Source: Limnohabitans sp. 2KL-27 (GTDB lineage: Bacteria > Pseudomonadota > Gammaproteobacteria > Burkholderiales > Burkholderiaceae_C). From it: a DNA stretch of 64,000 bases. Both the position numbers and the translations under genes were made by a program. Below, piece by piece: positions 20,738 through 57,850 of this stretch. The notes under the pieces are model-generated. The model saw only the letters and a list, made by a program, of their open reading frames with translations. It ran no database searches and was not told where the DNA came from. Positions within the stretch are counted from its first letter, which is position 1. Every line of letters begins with the position of its first letter. The stretch is taken from assembly GCF_001269345.1 (NCBI RefSeq), contig NZ_CXOP01000001.1:62001-126000 (forward strand), given 5' to 3'.

Positions 20738-20739
20738 AC

Positions 20740-23765: not shown

Positions 23766-23904
23766 ACATCACCGCGGCGCAGATTGGAACCCTGCGCCAG
23801 CCCGTGCAGGCCTGCACCACCGCAGGGTAAATCGAGTCCTGGACCAGGATCGGTCCAGCTGGGGTGCCGATGGACCGTGCGCTTTTTCCGCTGATGCCTG
23901 GGCT

Positions 23905-24794: not shown

Positions 24795-24953
24795 TACAAA
24801 ACCTCATGTTGGATCACCAAAAGGTTTTCGGCGATGTCGGATTTCAGTATCCACACACCCGCCCCTGTTGGAATTGATCCTGATCACGGGGCCGGAATCT
24901 TTTTCCAAGACTTCATGTCCCGGGGTATTCCCTGAGGTCAAGTGGGCATATTT

Positions 24954-24961
24954 TGTATACA
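24954..24961. promoter_or_regulatory. TGTATACA operator candidate upstream of the NCS2 permease
   Basis: This palindrome is followed by GTTTCGAACAC, nearly identical to the sequence after the site at 30296 (CTTTCGAACAC). It lies 77 bases before the permease ATG and probably overlaps its promoter. Confidence 0.6.
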
Positions 24962-25037
24962 GTTTCGAACACAAAGAAGCACACATCTAGTTTCTTTGCA
25001 GTTTTCTCCCTCTGTTTACTTTTCAGGAGACCCCTCC

Positions 25038-33308: not shown

Positions 33309-34496
33309 TCAAATGATCATGGGAATATCTGTCGCAGGTGGAGTATTGCGACTGCGTCCACAGCGCACCAAACCATCGATCATCACCATGCCAATGCCGG
33401 GGATATCACCCAGTTGAACACTGTCCAGCAGGTCTTTTCCAGCAGTGTGCTGGGCCTTGTCCATGAACACGAAGTCGGCTGCGCGGCCAACTTCGATGAG
33501 GCCACAATTTAAGTCGCGTATGCGTGCGGTATTGCCCGTCGCGAATCCGAACACAACTTCGGCAGGAATACCCGCGAAGCTGGAAATGAGCGAGATAAGC
33601 CGCAGCATACCCAGCGGCTGTACACCCGATCCTGCAGGCCCATCGGTGCCAAGAATCACCCGATGCGGACACTTGAGTTCGATGGCAGCGCGCGCGGCCT
33701 CAATGGCAATTTTCTCGTTGCCGTTGTGCACAATTTCAATGGCACGCGAGGACTTTTCGCACAATTCGCACACATGTCGCCAAGGCAGAGCAGTGTGGCC
33801 ACCGTTGATGTGGCCAATTACATCAGCATCTGCTTCCAGGATCACGTCCTTGTCGATCAGGCCCGAGCCTGGGATAGACGGACCACCGGTGTGAATGGTG
33901 CTCTGGATTCCGTATTTTCTCGCCCAAGCCACCATTTTTTGAGCTTCTTCTCCGGCCTTGACCGATCCCAGCCCCACCTCGCCAAGCAGTTTGACTCCTG
34001 CATCAGCCAGGTCCTTGAAGTCTTGCTCAATCATGCCTTTTTCAATGACAGGAGCGCCAGCAATCACTTTGACGCCACCGGGGCGGAAGTTCTCGTAGGC
34101 GCGCTGTGCGGTGATGGCCAGGGCTTTAAGCCCGACGATGTCTTTGGGGCGACCGGGTAGGTGAACCTCGCCAGCCGAGATCATGGTCGTGACGCCGCCG
34201 TTCATAGTCGAGTCGATCCAGCCAATCTGGTTCTGACGCGGCGTCCAATCGCCAAAAACCGGGTGCACATGGCTGTCAATCAGGCCAGGAGCCACACAGG
34301 TTCGGCGAACATCAATAGTCTGACGAACGCCTTCTAAGTCGCAGTCCTTTTCTTTCCCGACTGCAATGATGATGCCGTCATTCACTAAGATGGTGTCGGC
34401 ATCCAGAATGGGATTGTCGATGTCGCCCGAGAGCAGTAAGCCGATGTTTTTAATGAGAACCTTGCCCGATTTTTCAGTGATTGCAGCTTCTGCCAT
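33309..34496 (-). CDS. ena: Enamidase-like amidohydrolase (nicotinate pathway)
   Basis: A 395-residue amidohydrolase strikingly like enamidase of Eubacterium barkeri. Shared features as I recall them are LIKNIG..SGDI..PIL.ADTI, TTMISAGE.H.PGRPKD, GEVGLG and the C-terminal SRNTPPA. Metal ligands are visible: His76 and His78 (HVHP), bridging Glu173, His202, His229 and Asp285. Enamidase opens 1,4,5,6-tetrahydro-6-oxonicotinate to 2-formylglutarate and ammonia. The start has GGAG 8 bases upstream. It is the last gene of the fdx-fpr-tetR-ena minus-strand unit. Confidence 0.82.
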   Translation of the reverse strand: MAEAAITEKSGKVLIKNIGLLLSGDIDNPILDADTILVNDGIIIAVGKEKDCDLEGVRQTIDVRRTCVAPGLIDSHVHPVFGDWTPRQNQIGWIDSTMNGGVTTMISAGEVHLPGRPKDIVGLKALAITAQRAYENFRPGGVKVIAGAPVIEKGMIEQDFKDLADAGVKLLGEVGLGSVKAGEEAQKMVAWARKYGIQSTIHTGGPSIPGSGLIDKDVILEADADVIGHINGGHTALPWRHVCELCEKSSRAIEIVHNGNEKIAIEAARAAIELKCPHRVILGTDGPAGSGVQPLGMLRLISLISSFAGIPAEVVFGFATGNTARIRDLNCGLIEVGRAADFVFMDKAQHTAGKDLLDSVQLGDIPGIGMVMIDGLVRCGRSRNTPPATDIPMII

Positions 34497-34524
34497 GAGT
34501 TACTCCGGTGAGGTTGAAGGAATT

Positions 34525-35205
34525 TCAAGTCTTCACGGTGCGAAGCACCGTTTCGATCACAAACTGTTGCCAATGCACCATCGCATCTTGGTTCTCAAGC
34601 TTTTCTCCGAGAAAAGCAGAAAGAGTGAAGCGATTAGAGAGGTAGAAGTAGTTCAAGCCAGCGATCATGAGATAGACATCGCGCCCCAACAGGTCTTTGC
34701 GGAAGACCTTTTTCTGTGCACCGCTAGCCAACACCGATTCAAGGATCTGGATGGCTGGTGAAGAATATTCGCGGGCTCTCAACGATTTAGAGATGTGTTT
34801 TCCCCGATGAAGGTTCTCGTCGTTGAGGAGGGTGATGAACTCAGGGTTGCGCTGGTAGTAATCCCACATGAAACTCACCACCGCGACCAAGGCTTCTTCA
34901 GGCTTTTCAACATTAAGTTTGAGACGTGCTTCAGCGTCGTTGAACCGTCGGTACAGGTCTTCGAGCACGGCGATGTAGAGCCCCTCTTTGCTGCCAAAGT
35001 AGTAGTAGATCATCCGGTCGTGCGACTTGGCCGCTTTGGAGATCTGGTCGACGCGCGCGCCTGAAAACCCGTGTTTGGCAAAAATGCGAGTGGCCGCTCG
35101 CAATATGCTGTCCTGAGTTTCCTGAGCCGCCAGTTCACGTACGCCAGGCTTGCGCCCAGGGGCGGCAAGTTTGCGGGTGGGGCTACGCGTCGTGGTTGTG
35201 CTCAT
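34525..35205 (-). CDS. TetR-family transcriptional regulator
   Basis: A 226-residue regulator. The N-terminal 25 residues are basic and flexible. The helix-turn-helix lies at about residues 30-75 (RAATRIFAKHGFSGARVDQI, then MIYYYFGSKEGLY). The C-terminal domain is larger, of the type with a TetR_C_33-like ligand pocket. It is encoded between the ferredoxin reductase and enamidase genes and probably controls the divergent catabolic promoters at 36354-36568, where two copies of a spaced inverted repeat occur. Confidence 0.88.
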   Translation of the reverse strand: MSTTTTRSPTRKLAAPGRKPGVRELAAQETQDSILRAATRIFAKHGFSGARVDQISKAAKSHDRMIYYYFGSKEGLYIAVLEDLYRRFNDAEARLKLNVEKPEEALVAVVSFMWDYYQRNPEFITLLNDENLHRGKHISKSLRAREYSSPAIQILESVLASGAQKKVFRKDLLGRDVYLMIAGLNYFYLSNRFTLSAFLGEKLENQDAMVHWQQFVIETVLRTVKT

Positions 35206-35233
35206 GGGCTAGGGGTGTTGCAGGGGGTGGATT

Positions 35234-36007
35234 TCAGGACTCAGCGAAAGCGCGCTCGATCACGAAGTCGCCCGGGCGTGAAGTATTGCCTTCGTTGAAG
35301 CCACGCGATTCTAGAAGATGCTTGAGATCCTTCAGCATGGCCGGGCTGCCACAAATCATTGCACGGTCGGTGGAGGGATTCAATGGTGGCAAGTCCAAGG
35401 CAGAGAAAAGTTTTCCGGATTCCATCAGGTCAGGTATTCGCCCCATGTTACGGAAACCCTCGCGCGTGACCGTTGGGTAGTACAGCAACTTACTGGCGAT
35501 CATATCGCCCAGAAATTCGTGGTTTGGCAGATGGTCGAGGATGAGGTCATGGTAAGCCAATTCGTCGACCGTCCGCACGCCATGTACCAGGATGATTTGC
35601 TCGAATTTTTCGTAAGTTTCAGGATCGCGCACGATACTCATGAAAGGCGCGAGGCCAGTGCCAGTGGACAGCATGTAAAGGCGTTTGCCTGGTAACAAAT
35701 AGTCTACAACCAGAGTGCCGGTCGGCTTGCGTCCGACGATGACGGTGTCGCCCACTTGGATGTGCTGCAGCCGGGAGGTGAGCGGGCCATCCTCGACCTT
35801 GATACTCAAGAATTCCAGATGGTCCTCGTAGTTTGGCGAGGCAATGCTGTAAGCGCGCAGCAGTGGCTTTTCATTGATACGCAAACCAATCATTGTGAAG
35901 TGGCCGTTGTTGAAGCGCAGGGATGTATCGCGGGTGGTGGTAAAGCTGAACAAACGGTCGGTCCAGTGATGAACGCTGATCACGCGTTCCTCGATGAATG
36001 CACTCAT
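35234..36007 (-). CDS. fpr: Ferredoxin--NADP reductase
   Basis: A 257-residue FNR of the bacterial subclass I. The FAD site is RAYSIASPNYEDHLEF, the NADP site is STGTGLAPFMSIVRDPETYE, and the typical end FVIERAFAES carries the C-terminal residues near the flavin. AAGGAA precedes the ATG by about 7 bases. It probably reduces the ferredoxin encoded 22 bases upstream with NADPH, giving low-potential electrons for the 6-hydroxynicotinate reductase homologue. Confidence 0.92.
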   Translation of the reverse strand: MSAFIEERVISVHHWTDRLFSFTTTRDTSLRFNNGHFTMIGLRINEKPLLRAYSIASPNYEDHLEFLSIKVEDGPLTSRLQHIQVGDTVIVGRKPTGTLVVDYLLPGKRLYMLSTGTGLAPFMSIVRDPETYEKFEQIILVHGVRTVDELAYHDLILDHLPNHEFLGDMIASKLLYYPTVTREGFRNMGRIPDLMESGKLFSALDLPPLNPSTDRAMICGSPAMLKDLKHLLESRGFNEGNTSRPGDFVIERAFAES

Positions 36008-36029
36008 TGTGGGTTCCTTGGCTGAAGGA

Positions 36030-36353
36030 TCAGTCTTTTAAGGTGGTTAATTTGTTTGTCCGGTCCTTCCACTCCTCTGCGTCAGGGAGCGGGAGGGTGC
36101 GCTTGGTGATGACGGGCCATCCTTGAGCGCGGTCCGCATTGATGGCGATGAAGTGGCGCTGGTCAATGGGGAGGTCTTCTTCTGCATAAATCGCGTTGAC
36201 TGGGCACTCAGGGATGCAGACTGCACAGTCTATGCACTCGTCCGGATCGATCACCAAAAAACTCGGCCCTTCCTTGAAACAGTCCACCGGGCACACATCC
36301 ACACAGTCGGTGTACTTGCAACGCACACAAGCATCAGTCACAACATGGGTCAT
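36030..36353 (-). CDS. fdxA: 7Fe-8S ferredoxin (FdxA type)
   Basis: A 107-residue ferredoxin. The N-terminal cluster motif is [17 protein letters not shown] and the second is [12 protein letters not shown], giving one [3Fe-4S] and one [4Fe-4S] site by family rules. A C-terminal extension of about 45 residues is normal for the FdxA group. The ATG at 36353 begins the conserved sequence and has AGGA upstream; a longer frame to 36398 does not. Being first in the fdx-fpr-tetR-ena unit, it looks like the dedicated electron carrier of the island. Confidence 0.92.
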
Positions 36354-36421
36354 ACGAATTCCTGAAAAACGGGCCTGGCACTGCCTAAGTGTCCGCAAAT
36401 ATTGCGGAGGAGAAACTTGTT

Positions 36422-36455
36422 TAGGGTTTACTCCATAGACAGTAGGTGAAGGCTA
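36422..36455. promoter_or_regulatory. Operator-like repeat, copy 1
   Basis: TAGGGTTTAC-14-GTGAAGGCTA. The half-sites form an imperfect inverted repeat. Copy 2 lies 58 bases downstream with identical spacing, between the fdxA and reductase genes that are read in opposite directions. Confidence 0.65.
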
Positions 36456-36479
36456 CATCAAAATTTCAGTTAATTGATG

Positions 36480-36513
36480 TAGGGTTTACTCCATGAAAGT
36501 TTAGTGAAGCCTA
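36480..36513. promoter_or_regulatory. Operator-like repeat, copy 2
   Basis: TAGGGTTTAC-14-GTGAAGCCTA. The inverted match is better than in copy 1 (8 of 10 positions). It lies 56 bases before the reductase ATG. The TetR (34525) or MarR (45172) proteins are the candidates to bind it. Confidence 0.65.
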
Positions 36514-36568
36514 CATTAAAGTCAAGTGAGGCTCAAGTCGAGCGTGCATTTTTGAGGCGAGTAAAAAC

Positions 36569-38182
36569 ATGGCCGAGCACACCAGAACAGATGGATTGCC
36601 AGGGATGGATGAGCCCCGAGTTCTCGAGCGCTCCCCCCCTCGCAGCGAGCGGATGGCTGATGCCAAGATCGAATGCAATGCGTGTCCCGTCTTATGTCAG
36701 ATCACCAGTGGCCGCACAGGCGCTTGCGACCGTTATGCAAATCAAGATGGGGTGTTGATACGTGTTGATCCGGTAGTTTTGCTGCGAAAGTCAATGGACC
36801 AGCAGGGCGCAAAGCTCGTGCAGTTCACCGGGCGCCTGGTGCAAAACGGTGCGCCCGATGCGCAGGATGTGTCTGAGGTATCGGATTGGAATGCTGACTT
36901 GTTGCTCGCCGATGAGGTGTTCGTGACCGGTGTGGGGTCATCCACAACCTACCCCGACTACAAACCTGCGCCGTTTATTGTTGGCTCCAAGGCTCAGGGA
37001 GTGGACATGGTGACAGTGGTCACAGAGGGCATCTTTAGCTATTGCAGTTACAAGGTGAAGATCGACACAGATCGATATCTTGGCCCTGAACAATCCAATG
37101 TGCGGTGTAAAGGCGAGGTGGTCGGACACGTCACTACGGCTGAGTATGGTTCCCAGATGTTGTCGTTGGGCGGTGTGCATCACCTCACCGGTGGCAGTAA
37201 GAAAGAGGGCCGCATCACTGTGGACATGATGGCTGCTCTGGGCAATAAAAAAGCGGTAGAGCTGAGCATTGATGGCGGCGCTCAGATCGTGATCCAAGCC
37301 GGAAAGGCCCCCATTGTCAACGGGGTGGAAGAGCAGCGCATGCGAGTTGGCTGTGGTTCGGCCACCGTGGGTATTTTTGCTAAACAACTTTATGGCAAGG
37401 TTGATGAGGTGGTGGTGGTGGATGATCACATCACAGGTGTGTTGACCGAGCATCAAGCTGGTCGTTGTCTGGACATGCGCCCCTCTGGCATCGCCATGCG
37501 AGGGCGAAAGTCCACACCGGGACGCTACTTCCAGGTTGCCAATCCCGGCACCGCTTGGGGCGGTACGTCGATAGCAGATCCGCTAGAAGTCATCGAAGGG
37601 TGGGATGCCAAGGTTTCCTGGCCTGGTCTTCGTTTACTCATGACCTCGACCACAGGTGAACACGCGGCTTGGTACGTGTTGGATGAGCAGCTGGTGCCGC
37701 GGGAGCAGCCCATGCCCGAGGCTGTGCAGGCGGTAGTGGATCGCATCGGAGAAAACTGCGAGCCTTCTATGACCACGGTACTGTTCCTGGCAGGTGCGGG
37801 CGGAAGCTTGCGAGCTGGAGCCACCGAAAACCCGGTACTGCTTACCCGCAGCATCAAGGATGCGCTGGTCAATGTGACCTGCGGCGGTGCGCCAGCCTAC
37901 GTCTGGCCTGGTGGTGGTATCACGGTGATGGTTGATGTGATGCGGATGCCCGACAACAGTTTTGGCACCGTACCTACGCCAGCTATCGTGGCACCTATTG
38001 AGTTCAGCATGCGTATGGACCACTATGCAGCGCTGGGTGGACACATAGATCAGGTGCGCAGCTTGGAGGACGTGCTGACGTCAGGAGCTTGGCACAACGA
38101 CGGCGCACCAACGCGCCTTCATTGGCAGCAAATCGAATCCGTCAATCCTTGGCCTTTGGGCCAGAAACCGCAGCTGGGCTGA
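36569..38182 (+). CDS. hnr: 6-hydroxynicotinate reductase-like Fe-S flavoprotein
   Basis: A 537-residue protein with an N-terminal iron-sulfur motif at Cys36, Cys39, Cys43 and Cys53 (CNACPVLC...GAC) and a large C-terminal domain. I recognise it as the family annotated as 6-hydroxynicotinate reductase, which in Eubacterium barkeri reduces 6-hydroxynicotinate to 1,4,5,6-tetrahydro-6-oxonicotinate with ferredoxin and contains a covalent flavin and Fe-S clusters. An AGAT motif ending at Thr419 resembles an ApbE flavinylation target. Further cysteines (SYCSYK, VGCGSA, VTCGGA) may bind other clusters. Head gene of the long plus-strand operon, divergent from fdxA. Confidence 0.78.
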   Translation: MAEHTRTDGLPGMDEPRVLERSPPRSERMADAKIECNACPVLCQITSGRTGACDRYANQDGVLIRVDPVVLLRKSMDQQGAKLVQFTGRLVQNGAPDAQDVSEVSDWNADLLLADEVFVTGVGSSTTYPDYKPAPFIVGSKAQGVDMVTVVTEGIFSYCSYKVKIDTDRYLGPEQSNVRCKGEVVGHVTTAEYGSQMLSLGGVHHLTGGSKKEGRITVDMMAALGNKKAVELSIDGGAQIVIQAGKAPIVNGVEEQRMRVGCGSATVGIFAKQLYGKVDEVVVVDDHITGVLTEHQAGRCLDMRPSGIAMRGRKSTPGRYFQVANPGTAWGGTSIADPLEVIEGWDAKVSWPGLRLLMTSTTGEHAAWYVLDEQLVPREQPMPEAVQAVVDRIGENCEPSMTTVLFLAGAGGSLRAGATENPVLLTRSIKDALVNVTCGGAPAYVWPGGGITVMVDVMRMPDNSFGTVPTPAIVAPIEFSMRMDHYAALGGHIDQVRSLEDVLTSGAWHNDGAPTRLHWQQIESVNPWPLGQKPQLG

Positions 38183-38184
38183 AA

Positions 38185-39111
38185 ATGCAAGCGCAACATC
38201 GGTCACTCGGTGAAGGTCGGCTCCACTTCCAGCACGGTCCTATGGACATAGTTCTCGGCGCCAGTGGAGACTTTGCTGCTTTGCAGCAGGCTCATGCGCA
38301 AGCGTGGGAGCGTTTTCGTGGCCTTCTGCAGGAGCTGGTTGATGAGCTGCCTGGATTACAGGCCCCGGTGGATGGACTTTGCACGTTGCGCGGCACAGTG
38401 GCTCGCCGCATGTGGGCCGCTGCTGAGGTGCACAGGCCGGCTTTTGTTACGCCTATGGTGGCAGTGGCCGGTGCTGTGGCTCAGGAGCTGCTGCTTGCCT
38501 ACGATCGCCCAGGAATTAACCGTGCTTGGGTCAACAACGGGGGTGACATCGCCCTACACCTTACGCCAGGCACGTCCTTTCGCATCGGTCTTTTAGCTCA
38601 AATTGAGCGTCAGGCGCAGTGGCACGATGCTGGCGGTTTGCAGATTGATGGCAAGTTTGATGTCACCCACGAGAGTGGGGTGCGTGGTGTCGCAACCAGC
38701 GGATGGCGCGGGCGAAGCTTCTCCCTTGGCATAGCAGACAGTGTGACGGTACTGGCTGCATCCTGCGCCGAAGCAGATGCAGCGGCCTCGCTTATCGCCA
38801 ATGCGGTCAATGTAGACGTGTTGGGGATCAAGCGGATGCCGGCTAACCAGCTTAAGGACAACAGCGATCTTGGCAATATCCCCGTCACCGTAGATGTGCC
38901 ACAACTCACGCCCAGCGAAGCATCCGAGGCGCTGCTTGCGGGACGTAAACACGCCATGGCATTACTAGAGGCTGGCCATATCCAAGCCTGTTTTATCACC
39001 TGCCAGGGCTGGACCGTGTCTACCCAAACCGGCGGCGCCGTGCCGCTGGCCCTCAACTCCTTAAAAAGGACAAGCGCCTCGGGCCAGTCGGCCTGCGTGC
39101 TGGAGCTTTAA
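38185..39111 (+). CDS. UPF0280 family protein, ApbE-like
   Basis: A 308-residue protein starting 2 bases after the reductase stop. NNGGDIALHL matches the metal/FAD-binding NxGGDI motif of ApbE flavin transferases, and SVTVLAASCAEADAAASLI matches the ApbE C-terminal motif. The UPF0280 family has no established reaction that I know of. Since the homologous reductase carries covalent flavin, a role as its dedicated flavin transferase is attractive, although canonical ApbE proteins are exported and this one has no signal peptide. Confidence 0.78.
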   Translation: MQAQHRSLGEGRLHFQHGPMDIVLGASGDFAALQQAHAQAWERFRGLLQELVDELPGLQAPVDGLCTLRGTVARRMWAAAEVHRPAFVTPMVAVAGAVAQELLLAYDRPGINRAWVNNGGDIALHLTPGTSFRIGLLAQIERQAQWHDAGGLQIDGKFDVTHESGVRGVATSGWRGRSFSLGIADSVTVLAASCAEADAAASLIANAVNVDVLGIKRMPANQLKDNSDLGNIPVTVDVPQLTPSEASEALLAGRKHAMALLEAGHIQACFITCQGWTVSTQTGGAVPLALNSLKRTSASGQSACVLEL

Positions 39112-39113
39112 CC

Positions 39114-39755
39114 ATGATCGAGATACGAAGAATTCACACCCATGTTGAAGACATATTTCACGAATTTGGTCCTGTCGCTGCGACGCCGCAGCGCCGTGGC
39201 TTCATTGCTGCGGTTTTGACCAATCCCTTTGCCGGCCGATACGTGGATGACATATTGCCCATGATGGAAGCGCTCAACTCCGTTGGCCCCCAGATGGCCC
39301 ACCAATTACTCACGGCTATGGCGGTGCAGCGTGAGCAGATCGAGGGTTATGGCAAGGGTGCCATCGTGGGTGAAGCTGGCGAGCTCGAGCACGGTGCGCT
39401 GTGGCACGTGCCCGGTGGATATGCCATGCGTGAATTGTTGGGCTGGGACGGCGACCGCGTCGCCTACATGGCGGGCAAAGGCCAAGATAAGACAGGACAG
39501 CCTGGTAACGCTATATCGATTGTGCCGTCCACCAAAAAAGTGGGCCCACCCGGTTGCACCCTTGACATACCTCTGACCCACATCAACGCCAGCTACGTTC
39601 GCAGCCACTTCGATGCCATAGAAGCGCGCGTGCCGGGAGCCCCATTTCCGGACGAAGTTGTGTTCCTGCTGGCCATGTCTACAGGACCTCGCGTGCACGC
39701 TCGTGTGGGAGGGCTCAAGGCTGCCGATATTGCCAAATGGGACGGTCTGCGCTGA
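39114..39755 (+). CDS. Amino acid synthesis (DUF1185) family protein, copy 1
   Basis: A 213-residue protein starting 2 bases after the previous stop. It has the family block GYGKGAIVGEAGELEHGALW, then PSTKKVGPPG and SHFDAIEARVP. The family name comes from annotation, not from a known reaction; structures of relatives show a chorismate-mutase-like fold. The next gene is a paralogue, sharing IVGEAGELEH, RSHFDAIEARV and a GGL-(K/Q)A-(A/S)-(D/E)I ending. No signal peptide. Candidate catalyst or subunit for a step in the heterocycle pathway. Confidence 0.75.
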   Translation: MIEIRRIHTHVEDIFHEFGPVAATPQRRGFIAAVLTNPFAGRYVDDILPMMEALNSVGPQMAHQLLTAMAVQREQIEGYGKGAIVGEAGELEHGALWHVPGGYAMRELLGWDGDRVAYMAGKGQDKTGQPGNAISIVPSTKKVGPPGCTLDIPLTHINASYVRSHFDAIEARVPGAPFPDEVVFLLAMSTGPRVHARVGGLKAADIAKWDGLR

Positions 39756-39793
39756 AGCGGGGCCAAGATTAATTGCATCAAATAAGGAATGCC

Positions 39794-40378
39794 ATGACAA
39801 CCAAGATCAGAAAACTTCTTGTCCAGGTGGACGAAATCCGCATCGAAATGGGCCAGGCCGTGAATCCGCCTACTCGCCGTGCAGTGGCGATGGCCGTGAT
39901 CGAAAACCCTTACGCGGGTCGATACGAGCAGAACCTGGACGCGCTGATCACCATCGGCGAAGAACTAGGTGCATTGCTGGGCGAGAAGTGTGTGCAAGCG
40001 CTGGGTATCACACCGGGTCAGGCTCAGAGTTACGGCAAGGCAGCCATTGTGGGTGAGGCGGGTGAATTGGAGCATGCCGCCGCCATCCTGCACCCTAAGT
40101 TGGGCGCGCCGCTACGCATGGCAGTGGAAAAAGGTGCTGCATTGGTGCCATCCAGCAAGAAACGCGGTGGCATGGGTACAGCCATCGACGTGCCGCTGGG
40201 CCACAAGGACGCCGCATTTGTGCGCAGTCACTTTGACGCGATAGAAGCACGTGTGTGCGATGCGCCGCGCTCCAATGAAATTGTTGTTGCAGTAGCAGTC
40301 ACCGACAGCGGGCGTCCTTTGCCGCGTATCGGTGGCCTTCAGGCCAGTGAGATCAAAGGCCTAGATGGTTTGAGGTGA
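39794..40378 (+). CDS. Amino acid synthesis (DUF1185) family protein, copy 2
   Basis: A 194-residue paralogue of the upstream gene. It starts at the ATG at 39794, which has AAGGA 6 bases ahead. The core SYGKAAIVGEAGELEHAAAI, PSSKKRGGMG, DVPLGHKDA and RSHFDAIEARVCDAP are shared with copy 1, but the copy 1 insert around residues 105-120 is missing. Two diverged copies in tandem suggest a heteromer or two related reactions. Confidence 0.75.
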   Translation: MTTKIRKLLVQVDEIRIEMGQAVNPPTRRAVAMAVIENPYAGRYEQNLDALITIGEELGALLGEKCVQALGITPGQAQSYGKAAIVGEAGELEHAAAILHPKLGAPLRMAVEKGAALVPSSKKRGGMGTAIDVPLGHKDAAFVRSHFDAIEARVCDAPRSNEIVVAVAVTDSGRPLPRIGGLQASEIKGLDGLR

Positions 40379-40434
40379 TGGGCTTCGGCCCGATGTAAGC
40401 GTGAAAGTACTTTAACCCCCTGAAAGGAATGACC

Positions 40435-41649: not shown

Positions 41650-41710
41650 TATTAGGCACTTAACGAACGAGGCGCTGTATGTCTGAATTGTTGAACTCTG
41701 CAGAGGTGCT

Positions 41711-43606
41711 ATGAACTTCTCAGGCTTAGTTGTCCAGTTGCTCAATGGACTGGCTGGCGCTTCGTCGCTGTTTCTGGTCGCGGCCGGGTTGTCACTTATT
41801 TTTGGTGTCACCCGGATCGTGAACTTCGCACACGGCTCCTTCTACATGGTGGGTGTTTATGTAGCCTACGTGCTGGTGGACAAACTGGAATGGCTGGGCT
41901 TCTGGTTCGCCGTGCCCATTGCAGCCATCACCGTGGGCCTGCTGGGGGTTATCGTGGAGATGACGCTGCTGCGGCGCATCTACCGCGCACCAGAATTGTT
42001 CCAATTGCTCGCTACCTTTGCCTTGGTCTTGGTCATCAAGGATGGCGTTTTGTGGCTGTTTGGCCCTGAGGAATTGCTTGGCCCGCGCGCTCCCGGCATG
42101 ACCGGATCTGTAGAAATCCTCGGGCGTCAGTTCCCAACTTATGACCTGTTTCTAATTGTGGTCGGTCCCATCGTGCTGGGCCTCCTGTGGACACTTTTGA
42201 CGCGCACTCGCTGGGGTACCTTGGTACGCGCTGCTACCCAAGACCGCGAAATGGTGGGTGCCTTGGGCGTTAATCAGGCATGGCTGTTCACTGCGGTATT
42301 CGCCCTAGGTGCCATGCTGGCTGGGTTAGGCGGTGCGTTGCAATTGCCGCGCGAACCTGCAAACCTGGAGATGGATCTGCACATCATTGGCTCCGCCTTT
42401 GTAGTGGTGGTGGTCGGTGGTATGGGCTCCATAACTGGGGCCTTTATCGCCGCATTGCTGATCTCCGAGATTAAGGCCATCTGTATCTGGCTAGGTCTGA
42501 TCGAGGTGTTTGGCATCGAAATTTCCTTCTCCAAGCTCACCTTGGTTGCCGAATTCGTGGTTATGGCGGTGGTGCTGGTTGTGCGGCCTTGGGGCCTGAT
42601 GGGCAAGCAACAATCTGTTTCCCGTGTCATGGGCGAAGCAGAGATGCCCATACGACCTGCCGACAAGCTCTTCATGTCCGGCGTTGCGATGTTGACCTTG
42701 GTGCTGTTGGTTTTGCCTCAAGCCACCAGCGGATCGCCTTATGTGGTCGTGCTCGTGATCGATCTTCTGATCGCCGCACTGTTCGCCGCTAGTCTGCATT
42801 TCATCATGGGGCCTGCGGGGATGCATTCCTTTGGCCATGCCGCGTACTTCGGCCTAGGCGCCTACGCAGCAGCGCTAGTTGTGCGCAAGCTGGGCTTGTC
42901 CATGGAAATGGCCTTGGTGCTGGCACCTGTGGTGGCCGGGCTCGGAGCCATTATTGTGGGCTGGTTCAGTGTTCGGCTTTCGGGCGTATACCTGGCCATG
43001 CTGACGCTGGCCTTTGCTCAGATTGTTTGGGCCGGCGTGTACCAGTGGGACGCATTCACTGGCGGCAGCAATGGTTTGACCGGTGTATGGCCTGCTGAGT
43101 GGCTGTCCGACAAAACGGCTTATTACTACCTGACCTTGGTGCTGGTGGCAGTTTCATTGTGGGCTTTGCGACGCATGTTGTTCTCACCCTTTGGCTATGC
43201 GTTACGGGCGGGACGCGACTCTTTCCTGCGAGCCGATGCCATCGGAATGAACGTCAAAGCAATGCAGTGGATGGCCTTTGTGATCGCGGGCGCGTTTGCT
43301 GGTGTAGCCGGTGCGCTGTTCGCCTTTTCCAAGGGAAGTATTTCGCCGGAAGCGCTGAACGTTAGCCGCTCAGTGGATGGCCTGGTGATGGTCCTGTTAG
43401 GGGGCATCCAGACCCTTGCCGGACCTGTGGTGGGTGCGGTCAGCTATACCTGGCTACACGACGTTATGGCGCGTACTACCGAATATTGGCGTGCCTTGTT
43501 AGGCGCGGTGATCCTGATCTTGGTGCTCTTATTCCCACAAGGCATTGCTGGCTTCTTCCGGCAATTGCTGGACCTTCGCCGAGCAAAAACGGAGGTAACT
43601 CAATGA
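41711..43606 (+). CDS. Fused LivH-LivM type ABC permease
   Basis: A 631-residue permease. Residues 1 to about 290 match LivH (QLLNGLAGASSLFLVAAGLS, then a GLGGALQLPREPANL coupling region). Residues about 310-631 match LivM (GPAGMHSFGHAAYFGLGAYA, then ALRAGRDSFLRADAIGMNVK). These are separate genes in most such transporters; here one polypeptide supplies both halves. The stop overlaps the ATPase start (ATGA). Confidence 0.92.
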   Translation: MNFSGLVVQLLNGLAGASSLFLVAAGLSLIFGVTRIVNFAHGSFYMVGVYVAYVLVDKLEWLGFWFAVPIAAITVGLLGVIVEMTLLRRIYRAPELFQLLATFALVLVIKDGVLWLFGPEELLGPRAPGMTGSVEILGRQFPTYDLFLIVVGPIVLGLLWTLLTRTRWGTLVRAATQDREMVGALGVNQAWLFTAVFALGAMLAGLGGALQLPREPANLEMDLHIIGSAFVVVVVGGMGSITGAFIAALLISEIKAICIWLGLIEVFGIEISFSKLTLVAEFVVMAVVLVVRPWGLMGKQQSVSRVMGEAEMPIRPADKLFMSGVAMLTLVLLVLPQATSGSPYVVVLVIDLLIAALFAASLHFIMGPAGMHSFGHAAYFGLGAYAAALVVRKLGLSMEMALVLAPVVAGLGAIIVGWFSVRLSGVYLAMLTLAFAQIVWAGVYQWDAFTGGSNGLTGVWPAEWLSDKTAYYYLTLVLVAVSLWALRRMLFSPFGYALRAGRDSFLRADAIGMNVKAMQWMAFVIAGAFAGVAGALFAFSKGSISPEALNVSRSVDGLVMVLLGGIQTLAGPVVGAVSYTWLHDVMARTTEYWRALLGAVILILVLLFPQGIAGFFRQLLDLRRAKTEVTQ

Positions 43607-44397
43607 GTCTTCTTAAAGTCGAAAACCTGGGCAAGTCCTTTGGTGGAGTCAAGGCCGTTGACGGCATCAATTTCGAGCTAAAGGCCGGTGAATTGCTGGC
43701 CCTTATAGGCCCTAATGGCGCAGGGAAGTCCACTACTTTCAACATGGTCAACGGCCAGCTCAAAGCCGATCGTGGTTCCATACAATTTGCTGGAACTGAA
43801 CTGGTGGGTTTACAGCCCCGCGAAATCTGGCGTTTGGGCGTAGGACGGACCTTCCAGATCGCCGCTACCTTCTCGTCACTGACGGTGGTAGAAAACGTTC
43901 AGATGGCCTTGTTGTCTCAAGACAGACGGCTCTTTTCCTTGTGGCCGGCGACGGCAAAACACCGCCGCAGTGATGCACTGGACTTGCTAGACATGGTGGG
44001 TATGGCTTCACAGGCCGACCGACCTTGTAGTGTGCTGGCCTACGGTGACGTCAAGCGGGTGGAGCTGGCAGTGGCGATGGCCAACAGCCCGAAGCTGTTG
44101 CTGATGGACGAGCCAACCGCTGGTATGGCACCCAAGGAACGTAACGAGCTGATGGCATTGACCAAGAAACTGGTGATTGAGCGCGGCTTGGCCGTGCTGT
44201 TCACCGAACACAGTATGGACGTGGTGTTCGCCTACGCCGACCGCATGGTGGTTCTGGCGCGGGGTCGTCTGATCGCCGAAGGACCGCCCCACGTGATCCG
44301 CGATCATCCGAAGGTGCAAGAGGTGTATTTCGGCTCGGGCAAGACTTTCGAGAAAGCCCGTGGCAGTGACAAAGCGAAACAGGAGCAAGCGGCATGA
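43603..44397 (+). CDS. Branched-chain-type ABC transporter ATP-binding protein (LivG)
   Basis: A 264-residue LivG ATPase. Walker A is GPNGAGKST, the signature region is SVLAYGDVKRVELAVAMANS, in which the usual LSGGQQ is replaced by LAYGD (commonly LSYG in this group), and Walker B is LLLMDEPTAGMAP. A GGAGG box lies ahead of the ATG at 43603. It pairs with the LivF ATPase that overlaps its stop by 4 bases. Confidence 0.93.
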   Translation: MSLLKVENLGKSFGGVKAVDGINFELKAGELLALIGPNGAGKSTTFNMVNGQLKADRGSIQFAGTELVGLQPREIWRLGVGRTFQIAATFSSLTVVENVQMALLSQDRRLFSLWPATAKHRRSDALDLLDMVGMASQADRPCSVLAYGDVKRVELAVAMANSPKLLLMDEPTAGMAPKERNELMALTKKLVIERGLAVLFTEHSMDVVFAYADRMVVLARGRLIAEGPPHVIRDHPKVQEVYFGSGKTFEKARGSDKAKQEQAA

Positions 44398-45143
44398 CAG
44401 CCCCCCAAGTTATCAGCCCGGAAATACTGCTGGACGCTCACGGCCTAAAGGCTTGGTACGGCGCGGCGCAGATCCTGTATGACATCAACCTGCAAGTCGG
44501 ACGTGGTGAAGTGGTGGCCCTCATGGGACGAAACGGTGCTGGCAAGTCCACCACACTCAAGACGCTCATGGGCCTGATGGACAAACGCAAGGGCACGGTT
44601 AGTTTCATGGGCCACGATGTGTCGGATGCGCAGCCACACCTGATCGCCTCGCTGGGGATGGGCTTTGTGCCGGAAGACCGAAGGGTATTCACCGACCTGA
44701 CAGTGACCGAGAACCTCGAGGTGGGGCGCCAGCCAGCACGCCGTTGGCCCGATGGTCGGTCCGCACCCACATGGACGCCACAGGATCTGTACAAACTGTT
44801 TCCCAATCTTGGCGAAATGCCTGATCGTCCTGGTGGGAGCATGAGCGGTGGTGAGCAGCAGATGCTCACTGTGGCCCGCACGCTTATGGGAAACCCATTC
44901 CTAGTCTTGCTCGATGAGCCGTCGGAGGGTGTGGCGCCGGTCATTGTCGAGCAAATGGCCCAGATGATCCAGGAGCTCAAGAGCAAAGGTGTGAGCATTT
45001 TTCTTTCTGAGCAAAACCTTCACTTTGCCGAATTGGTGTCCGATCGAGCATACGTGCTTGAAAAAGGCCAAATCCGTTTTGAAGGCACGATCGCCGAGTT
45101 GTCCCGCGCTGAGGATATACGCCGCGCCTACCTCAGTGTCTGA
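44394..45143 (+). CDS. Branched-chain-type ABC transporter ATP-binding protein (LivF)
   Basis: A 249-residue LivF ATPase. Walker A is GRNGAGKSTTLKTLMG, the signature is MSGGEQQML and Walker B is FLVLLDEPSEGVAP, with the LivF-specific VPEDRRVFTDLTVTENLEVG. It completes the island transporter of receptor, fused permease and two ATPases. Confidence 0.93.
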   Translation: MTAPQVISPEILLDAHGLKAWYGAAQILYDINLQVGRGEVVALMGRNGAGKSTTLKTLMGLMDKRKGTVSFMGHDVSDAQPHLIASLGMGFVPEDRRVFTDLTVTENLEVGRQPARRWPDGRSAPTWTPQDLYKLFPNLGEMPDRPGGSMSGGEQQMLTVARTLMGNPFLVLLDEPSEGVAPVIVEQMAQMIQELKSKGVSIFLSEQNLHFAELVSDRAYVLEKGQIRFEGTIAELSRAEDIRRAYLSV

Positions 45144-45171
45144 GACACCTCACCCCCACGGAGCAAAAACC

Positions 45172-45615
45172 ATGAGCAGGCCCCCGAACTCCGGCGAGTA
45201 TCGCGTAACCGATCAAGTCGGCCACCTGTTGCGCCGGGCGTACCAGCGGCATACCGCTATTTTTCAGTCGGTGGTACCTGCCAGCAAGCTCAGTGCTGCT
45301 CAGTTTGTGGTTCTATGCGCTGTGCGTGACCACCAAAGCGCGACCATACGCGATATCGTGGACGCGACCGCTATGGACGAGCCGACCGTGCGTGGCATCG
45401 TCGAGCGCCTCAAGTGGACAGACCTTGTGCATGTAGCCCACGAGCCTGGGGACAAACGTCATGCCATCGTCACCCTGAGTGTGTTGGGTCAGTCTGCAGT
45501 CACCGACACACTGCCATACGCGCAACAGATTTCGGAGCTCACCTTTGGCGATCTGAACGCGAGCGAACGCCAGCAGTTAACCGATCTCTTGCGCCGCATA
45601 AGTGGTGCTGCCTGA
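45172..45615 (+). CDS. MarR-family transcriptional regulator
   Basis: A 147-residue MarR-type winged-helix protein. Residues about 20-125 carry SAAQFVVLCAVRDHQSATIR, DEPTVRGIVERLKWTDLV and the wing EPGDKRHAIVTLS. GGAG lies 9 bases before the ATG. MarR proteins in aromatic-degradation clusters commonly repress their operon until the substrate or a CoA/hydroxylated intermediate binds. Encoded between the transporter and the dehydrogenase genes of one operon. Confidence 0.9.
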   Translation: MSRPPNSGEYRVTDQVGHLLRRAYQRHTAIFQSVVPASKLSAAQFVVLCAVRDHQSATIRDIVDATAMDEPTVRGIVERLKWTDLVHVAHEPGDKRHAIVTLSVLGQSAVTDTLPYAQQISELTFGDLNASERQQLTDLLRRISGAA

Positions 45616-45624
45616 CGTCCGGCC

Positions 45625-46137
45625 ATGGCCGCAATTCCTCAATTTACTCACCCCATTGAACTTTTGGTCAATGGCGCAAACCACCGGTTGACTGTGGGTG
45701 GCTCTGCCACCTTGTTGCAGGTCTTGCGAAACGATCTGGGTCTCAATGGCCCTAAATATGGCTGTGGTTTTGGCCAGTGTGGTGCCTGTACGGTGCATGT
45801 TGATGGTGTGGCTGCCCGCGCCTGTGTTATTCCCGCAGCCAAAGTTCAGGGACGGGACATCACCACCTTGGAGGGCTTAGGTGATCGACTGCGGCCGCAT
45901 CTGGTGCAAAGCGCCTTCATTCAGGCCCAAGCAGCGCAGTGTGGTTATTGCTTGAACGGGATGATCATGACGACCGTCGCACTCTTGGCCCAAAACCCTC
46001 ATCCTAGCCAGCAAGCCGTGCGTGATGCCCTCTCGGGCAATTTATGCCGTTGCGGTACCCACGTCGAGATCTTGGCAGCGGTTGAGCACGCCGTGGCCAT
46101 GATGGCGAATACAACTTCCGACATGGCCCAGAGATGA
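45625..46137 (+). CDS. nicA: Nicotinate-dehydrogenase-type [2Fe-2S] subunit
   Basis: A 170-residue small subunit of the molybdenum hydroxylase family, similar to NicA of Pseudomonas putida. The plant-type cluster is CGFGQCGACTVHVDG and the second is QCGYCLNGMIM...CRCGTH. It takes electrons from the molybdenum site in the next gene product and hands them to its haem domains. Overlaps the large-subunit start by 4 bases. Other members of this class act on isoquinoline and related N-heterocycles, so the substrate is not proven. Confidence 0.88.
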   Translation: MAAIPQFTHPIELLVNGANHRLTVGGSATLLQVLRNDLGLNGPKYGCGFGQCGACTVHVDGVAARACVIPAAKVQGRDITTLEGLGDRLRPHLVQSAFIQAQAAQCGYCLNGMIMTTVALLAQNPHPSQQAVRDALSGNLCRCGTHVEILAAVEHAVAMMANTTSDMAQR

Positions 46138-49100
46138 ACAGAAGCGAACGATTGAACCTGTTGCGCACGCGCAGCGACTTTCTGAGCGCTAGCGGTGTGC
46201 TGCTTATCACGCGCGAACCACCGCCACCGCCACCGTCTGCGCCAGGCCAGCCACCCATCGTTGCCGGCAACCCTGCCGAAGGCGTAGAAGTCCTTCTTTC
46301 GGTTTGGGACGACAACAGCGCACTCGCATTGCACGGCCACGTGGACCTGGGCACCGGCATAAAAACAGCACTGAGCCAGATCGTGGCCGAGGAACTCGAC
46401 CTTGCCATGGAGCAAGTTGACATGGTGCTTGGCGACACCGGGCGAGCGCCAAATCAGGGCCCGACCATCGCCAGTGCTTCGATCCAGATTCACGCTGTGC
46501 CGTTGCGCAAAGCCGCCGCGCAGGCGCGTGCCTGGCTGCTAAATCAGGCCGCCCAGCATCTCGGCGTGGCGGTGGAAAACCTCACTGTCGGTAGTGGCGA
46601 AGTCCGGGCTGCGGGTGACAATGCCAAGGCCGTGCAATATGGCGAACTACTTCGCGGACGGCGCGTAGAGTTACGGCTCGACCTCGATACCCCGGTTAAG
46701 GCGGTGGCAGATTACCGTGTTGTGGGCCAGAGCCAGCCGCGTGTGGACATTCCTGCCAAGGCCTTTGGTGAGGCCGTGTTCGTGCACGATATGCGGGTTC
46801 CCGGCATGTTGCACGGGCGTGTGGTGCGCCCGCCCTACGCGGGCGCAGACCACGGTGATTTCATTGGTAACACGCTGGAATCGGTCGACGAAAACTCCAT
46901 CGCCCACATTCCAGGTATCCGTGCAGTGGTAGTGATTCGCGACTTTGTGGGCATCGTCGCTGAACGCGAAGAGCAAGTTGAAGCAGCCTGTGCCAGCCTA
47001 CAGGTGCGCTGGAAAGCTTGGCCCGGCATGGCGCCGCTTGACGACCTGGCACAGGCGCTGCGGGACAACCCAGCACGAAAGCGCCAGTTGGTGGATGAGG
47101 GCGATGTGGGAAAGGCGCTGTCCGCTGCCAGCCAAGTACTGGAGCGAAGTTACGTCTGGCCCTACCAAATGCACGCATCCATCGGACCGTCGTGTGCGGT
47201 TGCCGATTGGGCGGGCGAGAGTGGGGCGCCGGCGCTGCGGGTATACGCTGGTACCCAGAACCCCCATGCCTTAAGGGCTGACTTGTCCCGTCTGATGGGC
47301 GTAGCGGATGTATCAATCGATGTGGTCCGCATGGAAGCGGCCGGTTGTTATGGCCGCAACTGCGCTGACGATGTGGCAGCTGATGCGGCTCTGCTGTCGC
47401 GTGCGGTGTCAGCTCCTGTGCGCGTTCAGCTCACACGCGAACAGGAGCATTTGTGGGAGCCTAAGGGAGCAGCCCAGCTCATGGAAGTGCGTGGCGGCAT
47501 CACTGCAGAAGGCGTTATCGCCGCCTACGATTTCCAAAGTGCCTACCCCTCGAATGCGTCCCCCACGCTGGCATTGTTGTTGACTCGCACGATTGAGCCG
47601 GTAGCAACGGCTTTCGAGATGGGTGACCGCACTGCAAGGCCGCCCTACGACATCGCCAATCTGCGTGTAACCATCAACGACATGCCGCCGATCTTGCGCG
47701 CCTCCTGGCTGCGAGGGGTGTCAGCCATGCCCAACTCGTTTGCGCATGAGTCCTATATTGACGAGCTGGCGGTGGCCGCTGGTATTGATCCGGTGGAATT
47801 TCGTCTGCGTTACCTCAAAGATCCGCGGGCCAGTGAACTGCTGGAGACCACGGCCAAGCGGGCTGGATGGATTGCCCACACAGAGCCACAGGGGCAGGGT
47901 GCCAGCGGTGACTGGCTGCATGGCCAGGGCGTAGCTTACGCACGTTATGTGCACAGTAAATGGCCCGGTTTCGGTGCCGCCTTGGCGGCCTGGGTGGCCG
48001 ATGTGGACGTGAACCAGAAAACGGGAGAAGTGCACGTCAAACGGGTTGTGGTTGGCCACGATGCAGGACTCACCATCAATCCCGCCGGTGTCGAACATCA
48101 GATCCATGGCAATGTGCTGCAGACCACCAGCCGCGCGCTCAAGGAACAGGTACGCGTAGACCCAGATACAGGGGTCGTGGCCACTCGCGAGTGGGGCAGT
48201 TATCCCATCCTGAGCTTCCGTGAGGTCCCAGTGATCGAGGTCATGCAGATGCCCCGGGCCGACCAGCCACCTTTGGGTGCTGGCGAGTCGGCTTCGGTGC
48301 CGGGCACAGCTGCTATTGCCAACGCCATCTTCGATGCCACCGGCGTTCGGTTTCGTCAACCGCCATTCACCGCCGAGGCTGTGCGTGAGGCACTGAATCC
48401 GCAACGCCTGCCCTCGCCAGAACCCCCAGCACCTGCACCTTTGCCCGAGGTGCCGGCCAATGCCCCTTGGCCGCGCCGACGCAGCCGCTGGTTACAGGCT
48501 GGTGCTCTATTGGCTGGTGGTGTTGGCGTGCTCCTAGGTCTGGCTGGGTGGCGTTCGGCCATTGCTCCGGTAGCACCCAGCACGGCAGTGGTGTACACCG
48601 CAGAGACCATCGAAAAAGGTCGCCAGCTTGCAGCCCTGGGCAACTGCATGCACTGCCATACGGTGGATGCCCGTCAGCCCCTGGCCGGTGGGTTGGCCAT
48701 GGAAACGCCGTTTGGTACTGTGCACAGCACGAACATCACACCCGACGTGGAAACAGGAATCGGTGCTTGGTCCTTTAGCGCCTTCCAACGCGCCATGCGC
48801 GAAGGTATCTCGCGCGATGGGCGTCACCTCTATCCGGCTTTCCCGTATACCTCTTTCACCCGGATGGGCGATGACGACCTCATGGCGCTCTACGCCTACC
48901 TGATGAACCAGCCAGCAGTGCGCGCCGATTTGCCCGCCACGCAGCTGAAGTTCCCTTTCAATGCTCGACCTCTGCTGGCCGGATGGAACGCCTTGTACCT
49001 GACGCCTGGCACGCTAAAGACCACGGAGACAACACGCTCAGCGTTATGGCAGCGCGGTGAGTACTTGGTCAACGGGGTCGGGCACTGTAGCGCCTGCCAC

Positions 49101-49781
49101 ACCGAGCGCAACGCTCTGGGGGCCGAAAAAGGTGGCATGGCCTTCCTGGGCGGTGCCATGGTCAAAGGCTGGGAGGCGCCCTCCTTGACTGCTCGCCAGC
49201 CAGGCCCAGTGCCCTGGACAGAGGAGGCCTTCTACAGTTATCTGCGTCATGGCCACAGCCCGGAGCACGGTATGGCGGGGGGGCCTATGGCTGATGTGGT
49301 GCGTAATCTGCAATTCGTGCCGGAGACGGACGTGCGCGCGATGGCCCACTATCTGTCGTCATTTGGGCAGCCCACCAACGCAGCACAAGCACAGCAGGCA
49401 GCTAGCCAGGCCGTGGCCGTTGCCGCCGCAGGCGCACCGCAGTTGCTAGGCTCAGCGCAGCGCATGTTCACGCAGGCTTGCGCTGCTTGCCACCATGATG
49501 GTGAAGGGCCACGTGTTCTAGGTGTCAATGTGCCGCTGGCACTCAACACTAACTTGCACAGCGCGCGGCCCGACAACCTGCTGCGCAGCATCCTCGAAGG
49601 TGTCCAGGACCCGGCCACGTCCGACATTGGCTTTATGCCGGCCTTCAAAGATGCCTTTGATGACCGCCAACTCGTGGAGTTGGCTGGCTATATGCGCCAG
49701 CGGTTTGCTCCCCAACAGCCACCCTGGACCGATCTGCCCCAAGCTGTCGCTCGCGCTCGGGCTGCTCAAACGCGCCCCTGA
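46134..49781 (+). CDS. nicB: Nicotinate-dehydrogenase-type molybdopterin subunit with three cytochrome c domains
   Basis: A 1215-residue protein. Residues 1 to about 755 are the molybdopterin domain of the IorB/NicB type. A hydrophobic segment near 780-800 (AGALLAGGVGVLLGLAGW) looks like a membrane helix. The C-terminal third has three haem c motifs, CMHCH (Cys838), CSACH (Cys985) and CAACH (Cys1116). It hydroxylates an N-heterocyclic ring, probably nicotinate to 6-hydroxynicotinate, and delivers electrons to the aerobic respiratory chain. Size and order agree with P. putida NicB. Confidence 0.86.
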   Translation: MNRSERLNLLRTRSDFLSASGVLLITREPPPPPPSAPGQPPIVAGNPAEGVEVLLSVWDDNSALALHGHVDLGTGIKTALSQIVAEELDLAMEQVDMVLGDTGRAPNQGPTIASASIQIHAVPLRKAAAQARAWLLNQAAQHLGVAVENLTVGSGEVRAAGDNAKAVQYGELLRGRRVELRLDLDTPVKAVADYRVVGQSQPRVDIPAKAFGEAVFVHDMRVPGMLHGRVVRPPYAGADHGDFIGNTLESVDENSIAHIPGIRAVVVIRDFVGIVAEREEQVEAACASLQVRWKAWPGMAPLDDLAQALRDNPARKRQLVDEGDVGKALSAASQVLERSYVWPYQMHASIGPSCAVADWAGESGAPALRVYAGTQNPHALRADLSRLMGVADVSIDVVRMEAAGCYGRNCADDVAADAALLSRAVSAPVRVQLTREQEHLWEPKGAAQLMEVRGGITAEGVIAAYDFQSAYPSNASPTLALLLTRTIEPVATAFEMGDRTARPPYDIANLRVTINDMPPILRASWLRGVSAMPNSFAHESYIDELAVAAGIDPVEFRLRYLKDPRASELLETTAKRAGWIAHTEPQGQGASGDWLHGQGVAYARYVHSKWPGFGAALAAWVADVDVNQKTGEVHVKRVVVGHDAGLTINPAGVEHQIHGNVLQTTSRALKEQVRVDPDTGVVATREWGSYPILSFREVPVIEVMQMPRADQPPLGAGESASVPGTAAIANAIFDATGVRFRQPPFTAEAVREALNPQRLPSPEPPAPAPLPEVPANAPWPRRRSRWLQAGALLAGGVGVLLGLAGWRSAIAPVAPSTAVVYTAETIEKGRQLAALGNCMHCHTVDARQPLAGGLAMETPFGTVHSTNITPDVETGIGAWSFSAFQRAMREGISRDGRHLYPAFPYTSFTRMGDDDLMALYAYLMNQPAVRADLPATQLKFPFNARPLLAGWNALYLTPGTLKTTETTRSALWQRGEYLVNGVGHCSACHTERNALGAEKGGMAFLGGAMVKGWEAPSLTARQPGPVPWTEEAFYSYLRHGHSPEHGMAGGPMADVVRNLQFVPETDVRAMAHYLSSFGQPTNAAQAQQAASQAVAVAAAGAPQLLGSAQRMFTQACAACHHDGEGPRVLGVNVPLALNTNLHSARPDNLLRSILEGVQDPATSDIGFMPAFKDAFDDRQLVELAGYMRQRFAPQQPPWTDLPQAVARARAAQTRP

Positions 49782-57519: not shown

Positions 57520-57849
57520 ATGATCCCCGGTGAATTGTTGATTGACCCCGGCCAGCACGCCCTGAACGTGGGCCGGCGCACCTGCACGTTGGTGGTGCAA
57601 AACGCCAGCGACCGCCCCATTCAGGTGGGCTCGCACTACCACTTTGCCGAGACCAATGCGGGCCTGAGCTTTGACCGCGTGGCCGCACGCGGCATGCGCC
57701 TGAACATCGCCTCGGGCATGGCGGTGCGCTTTGAGCCAGGCCAGCAACGCACGGTGGAGCTGGTGGACTACGCAGGTGAGCGCCTGGTGTTCGGCTTTCG
57801 GGGGCTCACCCAAGGCCCACTCGACGCCAGCCCATCGAAAGGGGGATGA
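57520..57849 (+). CDS. ureB: Urease beta subunit UreB
   Basis: A 109-residue subunit with [19 protein letters not shown] at the start, [15 protein letters not shown] in the middle and the [15 protein letters not shown] block, all standard. It starts 7 bases after the short peptide gene. Confidence 0.96.
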
Positions 57850-57850
57850 C

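Follow-up and report, generated by a model that had tools for sequence, protein, structure and literature searches.

A probable nicotinate degradation cluster in Limnohabitans pairs a NicAB-type hydroxylase with reductive enzymes and suggests exchangeable parts in related clusters

The stretch analysed here (the window; 64,000 nucleotides, C1:62001-126000 of the 2.97 Mb, two-contig genome of Limnohabitans sp. 2KL-27) carries a cluster that combines homologues of 6-hydroxynicotinate reductase (Hnr) and enamidase with a NicAB-type hydroxylase. Open reading frame translations and profile searches place two divergent gene sets at window positions 33309-49781. The minus-strand set consists of ena, a TetR gene, a ferredoxin reductase gene, and fdxA; these genes are spaced 22-28 bases apart and point away from the 215-base divergent region between the two sets. 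The plus-strand set runs in the order hnr, UPF0280, DUF1185, DUF1185, a Liv-type transporter, MarR, nicA, and nicB. The UPF0280 gene starts 2 bases after hnr and the first DUF1185 gene 2 bases after UPF0280; later junctions range from a 7-base overlap to a 61-base gap. The original prediction placed both reductive-enzyme homologues, a ferredoxin and its reductase, a cytochrome-linked NicAB-type enzyme, a transporter, and two regulators in one cluster, and all of them are present. The UPF0280 gene and the two DUF1185 (PF06684) genes are members beyond that account.

The enamidase homologue Ena (33309-34496, minus strand), a ring-opening amidohydrolase, matches the solved enamidase of Eubacterium barkeri (PDB 2VUN) at E=1.5e-106, with residues 12-390 aligned and an identity of 47% (180/379 aligned residues). 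In the alignment, H67, H69, E164, H193, H220, and D276 of 2VUN are conserved as H76, H78, E173, H202, H229, and D285 of Ena; these are the metal ligands of the amidohydrolase site. The loss of such residues, named beforehand as grounds for abandoning the assignment, is not seen in the comparison with 2VUN. Searches with the Hnr protein (36569-38182, plus strand) gave nothing in Pfam or NCBIfam at 1e-3 and nothing in the PDB below E=0.9. The name Hnr comes from plasmid records, in which relatives are labelled '6-hydroxynicotinate reductase', and from excerpts of PMC3511419, according to which the Hnr proteins of Bradyrhizobiaceae SG-6C and E. barkeri are 42% identical. Seven cysteine positions do not vary across 142/142 aligned segments of the window's Hnr family, in an alignment made without the E. 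barkeri protein. The intact metal site and these cysteines are in line with the earlier idea of a mixed oxidative-reductive route for an N-heterocycle. As a separate observation, the hnr gene of genome G075 is split into two neighbouring matches (L134:9926-10819), probably through a frameshift or a sequencing error that breaks the reading frame.

The hydroxylase consists of a [2Fe-2S] subunit of the NicA type (45625-46137, plus strand; PF01799, PF00111) and a molybdopterin subunit of the NicB type with a cytochrome c part (46134-49781, plus strand; PF20256, PF02738, PF00034, PF13442). In NicB, two molybdopterin domains precede two stretches that Pfam assigns to cytochrome c, and the translation holds three CxxCH motifs. 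No FAD subunit adjoins the pair, which is the composition of the NicAB type. The cytochrome part resembles the cytochrome c subunit of 8GY3 (E=1.6e-96), and from this match the electrons released by the hydroxylation probably pass into the respiratory chain. Electrons for the reductive step would come from the other gene set. The fdxA gene (36030-36353, minus strand) encodes a ferredoxin with 161.6 bits against NF045490 (cut-off 135), its start being set at 36353 and not at the upstream TTG at 36398. The neighbouring gene (35234-36007, minus strand; PF00175, PF00970) encodes a protein like ferredoxin-NADP reductase (FNR), a proposed electron donor, whose best curated match is to that enzyme (PRK10926, 157.6 bits), below the cut-off of 390.

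The cluster quite likely encodes a route that begins with nicotinate import and leads through 2-formylglutarate. The Liv-type ABC transporter would import nicotinate, which we infer to be the substrate of the NicAB-type molybdenum enzyme; this enzyme would hydroxylate it at C6 and pass the electrons to cytochrome c. Hnr would then reduce 6-hydroxynicotinate to 1,4,5,6-tetrahydro-6-oxonicotinate (THON), a step that probably draws on NADPH through the ferredoxin reductase and then FdxA. The enamidase would open the ring of THON to give ammonia and 2-formylglutarate. The UPF0280 protein, of predicted ApbE fold, may attach flavin to Hnr, and the DUF1185 proteins may act right after ring opening, for example by decarboxylating or tautomerising 2-formylglutarate toward glutarate. 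The reported lack of the oxidative genes nicC, nicX, nicD, nicE, and nicF was checked in part, by Pfam searches of 30 window stretches, 15 of them outside the cluster (two of these 15 without a match), with the first 75 residues read by eye in the other flanks.

Hnr is found in 8 of 60 genomes near that of the window and in 32 of 398 genomes drawn across the phylum, the window's own genome included in both, and in 18 of 86 genomes of the order of G385, which is probably rhizobial. A search of a named species collection confirmed at least 591 stretches. The best 80, picked for Hnr, were kept, and their titles give 76 Burkholderiales names, three 'betaproteobacterium' only, and one uncultured bacterium. 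The counts over these loci, several of which end early, are 78 for UPF0280, 74 and 76 for the two DUF1185 types, 68 for enamidase, 64 for NicA, and 58 for NicB. As the parts recur across these relatives, their association is not due to chance. Among the 51 named loci of at least 20 kb, UPF0280 is present in 51, enamidase in 49, NicA in 49, two DUF1185 genes in 48 (one in the other three), FNR in 36, a nicotinamidase type in 25, and FdxA in 11, while NicB is found in 19, many stretches ending inside nicB.

Another 35 Hnr loci, in stretches of 5-20 kb of which some end at a contig edge, have a more mixed content: UPF0280 in 34, one or two DUF1185 genes in 28, an FAD-type hydroxylase in 23, the hydantoinase-like HyuA in 12, enamidase in 7, NicB and a nicotinamidase type in 6 each, FNR in 5, and FdxA in 2. 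Each type of hydroxylase is found with each type of ring opener: NicB occurs with enamidase in 3 loci and with HyuA in 1, and the FAD type with enamidase in 4 and with HyuA in 9. The stretches of the remaining 18 loci contain no more than one of the two parts. On named plasmids, NicAB and HyuAB occur together in Neorhizobium sp. NCHU2750 and Paracoccaceae strain La 6. HyuAB is also present on plasmids of Pleomorphomonas, Fuscovulum, and Pseudosulfitobacter, a 63% enamidase on a Sulfitobacter pontiacus plasmid, and an amidohydrolase, by annotation, in Comamonadaceae OTU4NAUVB1.

In the draw of 398 genomes, the 32 with Hnr contain an enamidase ortholog alone in 16, HyuA alone in 14, both in two (G181, G251), and neither in none. 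Enamidase orthologs (at least 60% identity) occur in 18 genomes and HyuA orthologs (at least 61%) in 16, every one with Hnr. Neither was found in the 366 Hnr-less genomes when the best few candidates were scored; two genomes in which Hnr was not detected have enamidase homologues of 40%. At most three Hnr, two HyuA, and four enamidase candidates were scored per genome, and absences are less firm than in a set of 39 Hnr genomes (the 32 plus seven nearer relatives) in which all candidates were scored, with enamidase in 23, HyuA in 18, both in two, and neither in none. The second draw, of 86 genomes, shares three of its 18 Hnr genomes with the first set and contains enamidase (at least 66%) in eight, HyuA (at least 58%) in eight, both at these cuts in none, and neither in two. 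Of the latter, G477 has a fragmented assembly, and in G504 a 53% HyuA adjoins a HyuB. Its 68 Hnr-less genomes contain neither enzyme at these cuts, with a 46% enamidase homologue in G496 and 43-49% HyuA paralogues in several. Intermediate HyuA copies of 52-53% are found in two Hnr genomes of this draw, G504 and G481, the latter (52%) in a genome that also has enamidase.

Over the 54 distinct Hnr genomes, 28 have enamidase only, 22 HyuA only, two both, and two neither (Fisher p 8.6e-11, relatedness ignored). The HyuA query came from an Hnr locus (L134), and the identity cut was chosen after a gap between 61% and 48% had been seen. In a tree of 53 Hnr proteins built by a quick method, the enamidase and HyuA types are intermixed, with five changes on the best tree; the supported branches force only two changes for the enamidase label or four for the HyuA label. 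Four independent pairs on supported branches gave HyuA opposite to enamidase in 1.6 on average, no difference in 2.4, and the same direction in none, which is not significant by sign test.

Caprolactamase, N-methylhydantoinase, and 5-oxoprolinase are openers of cyclic amides, and THON is a lactam. The nearest curated families of HyuAB are the caprolactamase subunits NF050156 and NF050157 (508.7 and 317.9 bits, below cut-offs of 1000), and the nearest solved proteins are N-methylhydantoinase and 5-oxoprolinase. Both subunits exceed the cut-offs of PF01968 and PF02538 (295.4 and 527.4 bits against 22.9 and 26.8). From these likenesses, a caprolactamase-like HyuAB, probably an energy-driven ring opener, may replace enamidase in some Hnr clusters, and such a swap, if true, would explain ring opening in Hnr genomes that have no enamidase. 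One HyuA copy, at G467:C1:440689-442719, contains a single in-frame TGA.

It is also possible, though rather less probable, that HyuAB in the enamidase-less genomes serves another step or substrate than THON opening, and that Hnr there may reduce another heterocycle. Enzymes of the HyuA family have many substrates, and HyuB, which adjoins HyuA in 20 of 24 HyuA-bearing genomes, does not do so in G197 and G037 (the stretches of G075 and G480 end before the neighbour position). Two genomes hold both enzymes, and G452 and G468, counted as HyuA genomes, have a 40-42% enamidase homologue in addition. In eight genomes, hyuAB and hnr are on separate contigs or at least 70 kb apart; however, in six of these (G181, G251, G329, G254, G110, and G130, but not G419 or G387) hyuAB adjoins a 55-57% relative of the window's FNR. 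The Hnr proteins of the two types do not split into two clades, nicotinamidase-type genes lie near several HyuA-type Hnr clusters, and NicAB accompanies HyuAB on the plasmids named above. HyuA at ortholog-level identity was likewise not found in the 366 Hnr-less genomes, with the best two candidates scored in each, or in the 68 of the second draw. These points favor the replacement of enamidase by HyuAB.

A UPF0280 gene (in the window at 38185-39111, plus strand) lies beside hnr in 79 of the 80 named loci and in 34 of the 35 others. The sole exception among the latter, G508, has the gene elsewhere in its genome, and UPF0280 was found in none of 10 hand-picked Hnr-lacking genomes. The predicted model of the protein has an ApbE-like fold over its whole length. 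Six positions (N117, G119, G120, D121, D198, and T/S202) are kept in all 46 aligned UPF0280 sequences and resemble ApbE motifs. UPF0280 is a proposed flavinyl transferase that may load flavin onto Hnr; E. barkeri Hnr is reported by Alhapel to carry covalent flavin. A role in the Fe-S or sulfur assembly of Hnr, instead of flavin attachment, appears less likely in view of the full-length ApbE-like model and the conserved residue set, even though homocysteine synthesis in D. vulgaris needs COG2122 together with DUF39, and persulfide modification was put forward as a possible function (excerpts of PMC5764234). Flavin loading, if true, would be a new idea for COG2122/UPF0280, including the protein needed for homocysteine synthesis in D. 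vulgaris.

The two DUF1185 (AA_synth, PF06684) proteins, encoded at 39114-39755 and 39794-40378 on the plus strand, score 225.7 and 241.7 bits against a cut-off of 27, and the first matches PDB 3BYQ at 4.3e-45. The second starts at an ATG at 39794 (comparison scripts ran from 39791). DUF1185 genes lie near Hnr in 77 of 80 named and 28 of 35 other loci, and the family is present in 31 of the 32 Hnr genomes of the 398-genome draw vs 28 of the 366 others. Trigonelline is N-methylnicotinate. In its breakdown, the DUF1185 homologue TgnF stimulates the TgnE-dependent oxidation of succinate semialdehyde, and HcdD, a homologue from coumarin breakdown, showed no such effect (excerpts of PMC7913881). 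By analogy, the trigonelline and nicotinate routes could share a 2-formyl dicarboxylate that must lose CO2. The family is further tied to ring opening because a DUF1185 gene directly precedes a 40-46% enamidase homologue in three genomes without detected Hnr, G294, G344, and G496 (L164:5074-6848, L165:4080-5910, L196:8547-10334). These pairs possibly belong to another heterocycle pathway, and at L164 and L196 a gene that resembles an FAD monooxygenase by eye comes after the enamidase homologue. Near DUF1185 in the Hnr clusters of two roseobacterial plasmids lies a gene for the alpha subunit of an aromatic ring-hydroxylating dioxygenase (L173:18103-19170, L199:17628-18698). The DUF1185 proteins may act on 2-formylglutarate, a candidate role for a family that has solved structures and no known reaction.

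These observations can tentatively be drawn together as a modular pathway, a reading that we hold as an open possibility at somewhat under even chances. A near-constant core (Hnr, UPF0280 as its own flavinyl transferase, and usually DUF1185) would be combined with a hydroxylase end (NicAB or FAD-linked) and a ring-opener end (metal-dependent enamidase or an ATP-dependent caprolactamase-like HyuAB hydrolysing THON), the two ends being swapped independently. DUF1185 would supply the missing step from 2-formylglutarate to glutarate semialdehyde, needed by the aerobic route to glutarate and not by the E. barkeri fermentation. Several points count against the pathway proposed for the window. UPF0280 scores 13.9 bits against Pfam ApbE (PF02424), below the cut-off of 25.6, and the ApbE acceptor motif is not exact in Hnr, where D286-HITGVL-[S/T]293, a candidate attachment site, is one residue too long. 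FdxA is present in only 17 of the 80 named loci and FNR in 59, and for this reason the electron route from NADPH through FNR and FdxA is not fixed by gene content. DUF1185 was not found in the fetched stretches of seven of the 35 other Hnr loci (G045, G197, G498, G508, G504, G452, and G477), nor in the whole genome of G197, the only one of the seven searched in full. NicAB-type enzymes may also act on other heterocycles, which touches the substrate itself.

That the same chemistry serves another N-heterocycle (a substituted nicotinate, isonicotinate, picolinate, or a quinoline-type compound), nicotinate not being the natural substrate, is improbable: although molybdenum hydroxylases of the NicAB class accept varied substrates, the molybdenum subunit in the window reaches no NCBIfam cut-off, and purine degradation enzymes and urease alpha in the same window make several N-heterocycles plausible, the Ena ligands are kept at 47% identity to the E. 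barkeri enzyme, nicotinamidase genes lie near some relatives' clusters and support nicotinate, and MarR neighbours are labelled nicR in two records. A Bradyrhizobiaceae strain with a related cluster also degrades 6-chloronicotinate via 6-hydroxynicotinate (excerpts of PMC3511419). Nicotinate is the most likely substrate, and the part of the original prediction that proposed degradation of nicotinate or an analogue by a mixed route stands.

The remaining genes of the cluster concern transport and regulation. The transporter comprises a Liv-type substrate-binding protein (40429-41649; PF13458), a fused Liv-type permease (41711-43606; PF02653 in two stretches), a LivG-type ATPase (43603-44397; PF00005, PF12399), and a LivF-type ATPase (44394-45143; PF00005), followed by the MarR-family regulator (45172-45615; PF01047), all on the plus strand. 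The TetR-family regulator (34525-35205; PF00440, PF17938) is on the minus strand. In the divergent promoter region, a script found two predicted operator palindromes, at 36420-36457 (two mismatches) and at 36478-36515, the source of the pattern (no mismatches). When up to three mismatches are allowed, 8 of the 80 named loci contain the pattern within 150 bases upstream of hnr, against none of 79 other fetched stretches, which makes the palindromes a fair guess as a candidate TetR operator.

The cluster is flanked by purine degradation enzymes (window 8807-26519) and urease alpha (57731-59593) by Pfam, and the window therefore looks like a nitrogen-scavenging region. The purine set includes a urate oxidase N-terminal domain, XdhC, xanthine dehydrogenase-type subunits, HIU hydrolase, a xanthine/uracil permease, and an M20 peptidase, together with a 593-aa protein (20734-22515) that joins OHCU decarboxylase and M20 peptidase domains.

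The comparison of genomes yields three testable predictions, all computational: the HyuAB swap, the flavin role of UPF0280, and the role of DUF1185. With them, the reductive breakdown of nicotinate by aerobes, described biochemically in Azorhizobium, gains a fuller, testable gene list and candidate roles for two unknown families. Among the papers listed by searches of an open-access library, none was seen to link hydantoinase, caprolactamase, UPF0280, or DUF1185 to 6-hydroxynicotinate, though such a link may be in print. Among known systems, caprolactamase CapAB, N-methylhydantoinase, and 5-oxoprolinase are nearest to the HyuAB of the relatives, which is not part of the window's cluster. The predicted UPF0280 fold is like that of the ApbE flavinyl transferases, with a sequence match under the Pfam cut-off. 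The nic pathway of Pseudomonas putida has NicAB-type C6 hydroxylation in common with the window, and reportedly (from the work of Jimenez in 2008) uses oxidative ring cleavage in place of Hnr and enamidase. The first three genes are reported by Alhapel (2006) to occur in nine Proteobacteria. The E. barkeri fermentation has Hnr- and enamidase-type steps and like intermediates (excerpts of PMC3511419 and PMC9304392); the window differs in its cytochrome-linked NicAB-type hydroxylase, and it also carries UPF0280 and two DUF1185 genes. Hnr of SG-6C sits in a conserved cluster known from Azorhizobium and Bradyrhizobiaceae, which is aerobic and shares the first three steps, an ABC transporter, and two conserved unknown proteins (excerpts of PMC3511419). 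Because this cluster type is described there, the suggestion that the route may be little described at the level of genes finds no support; the cluster in the window is not a new pathway but another member of the published kind, of the Burkholderiales type.

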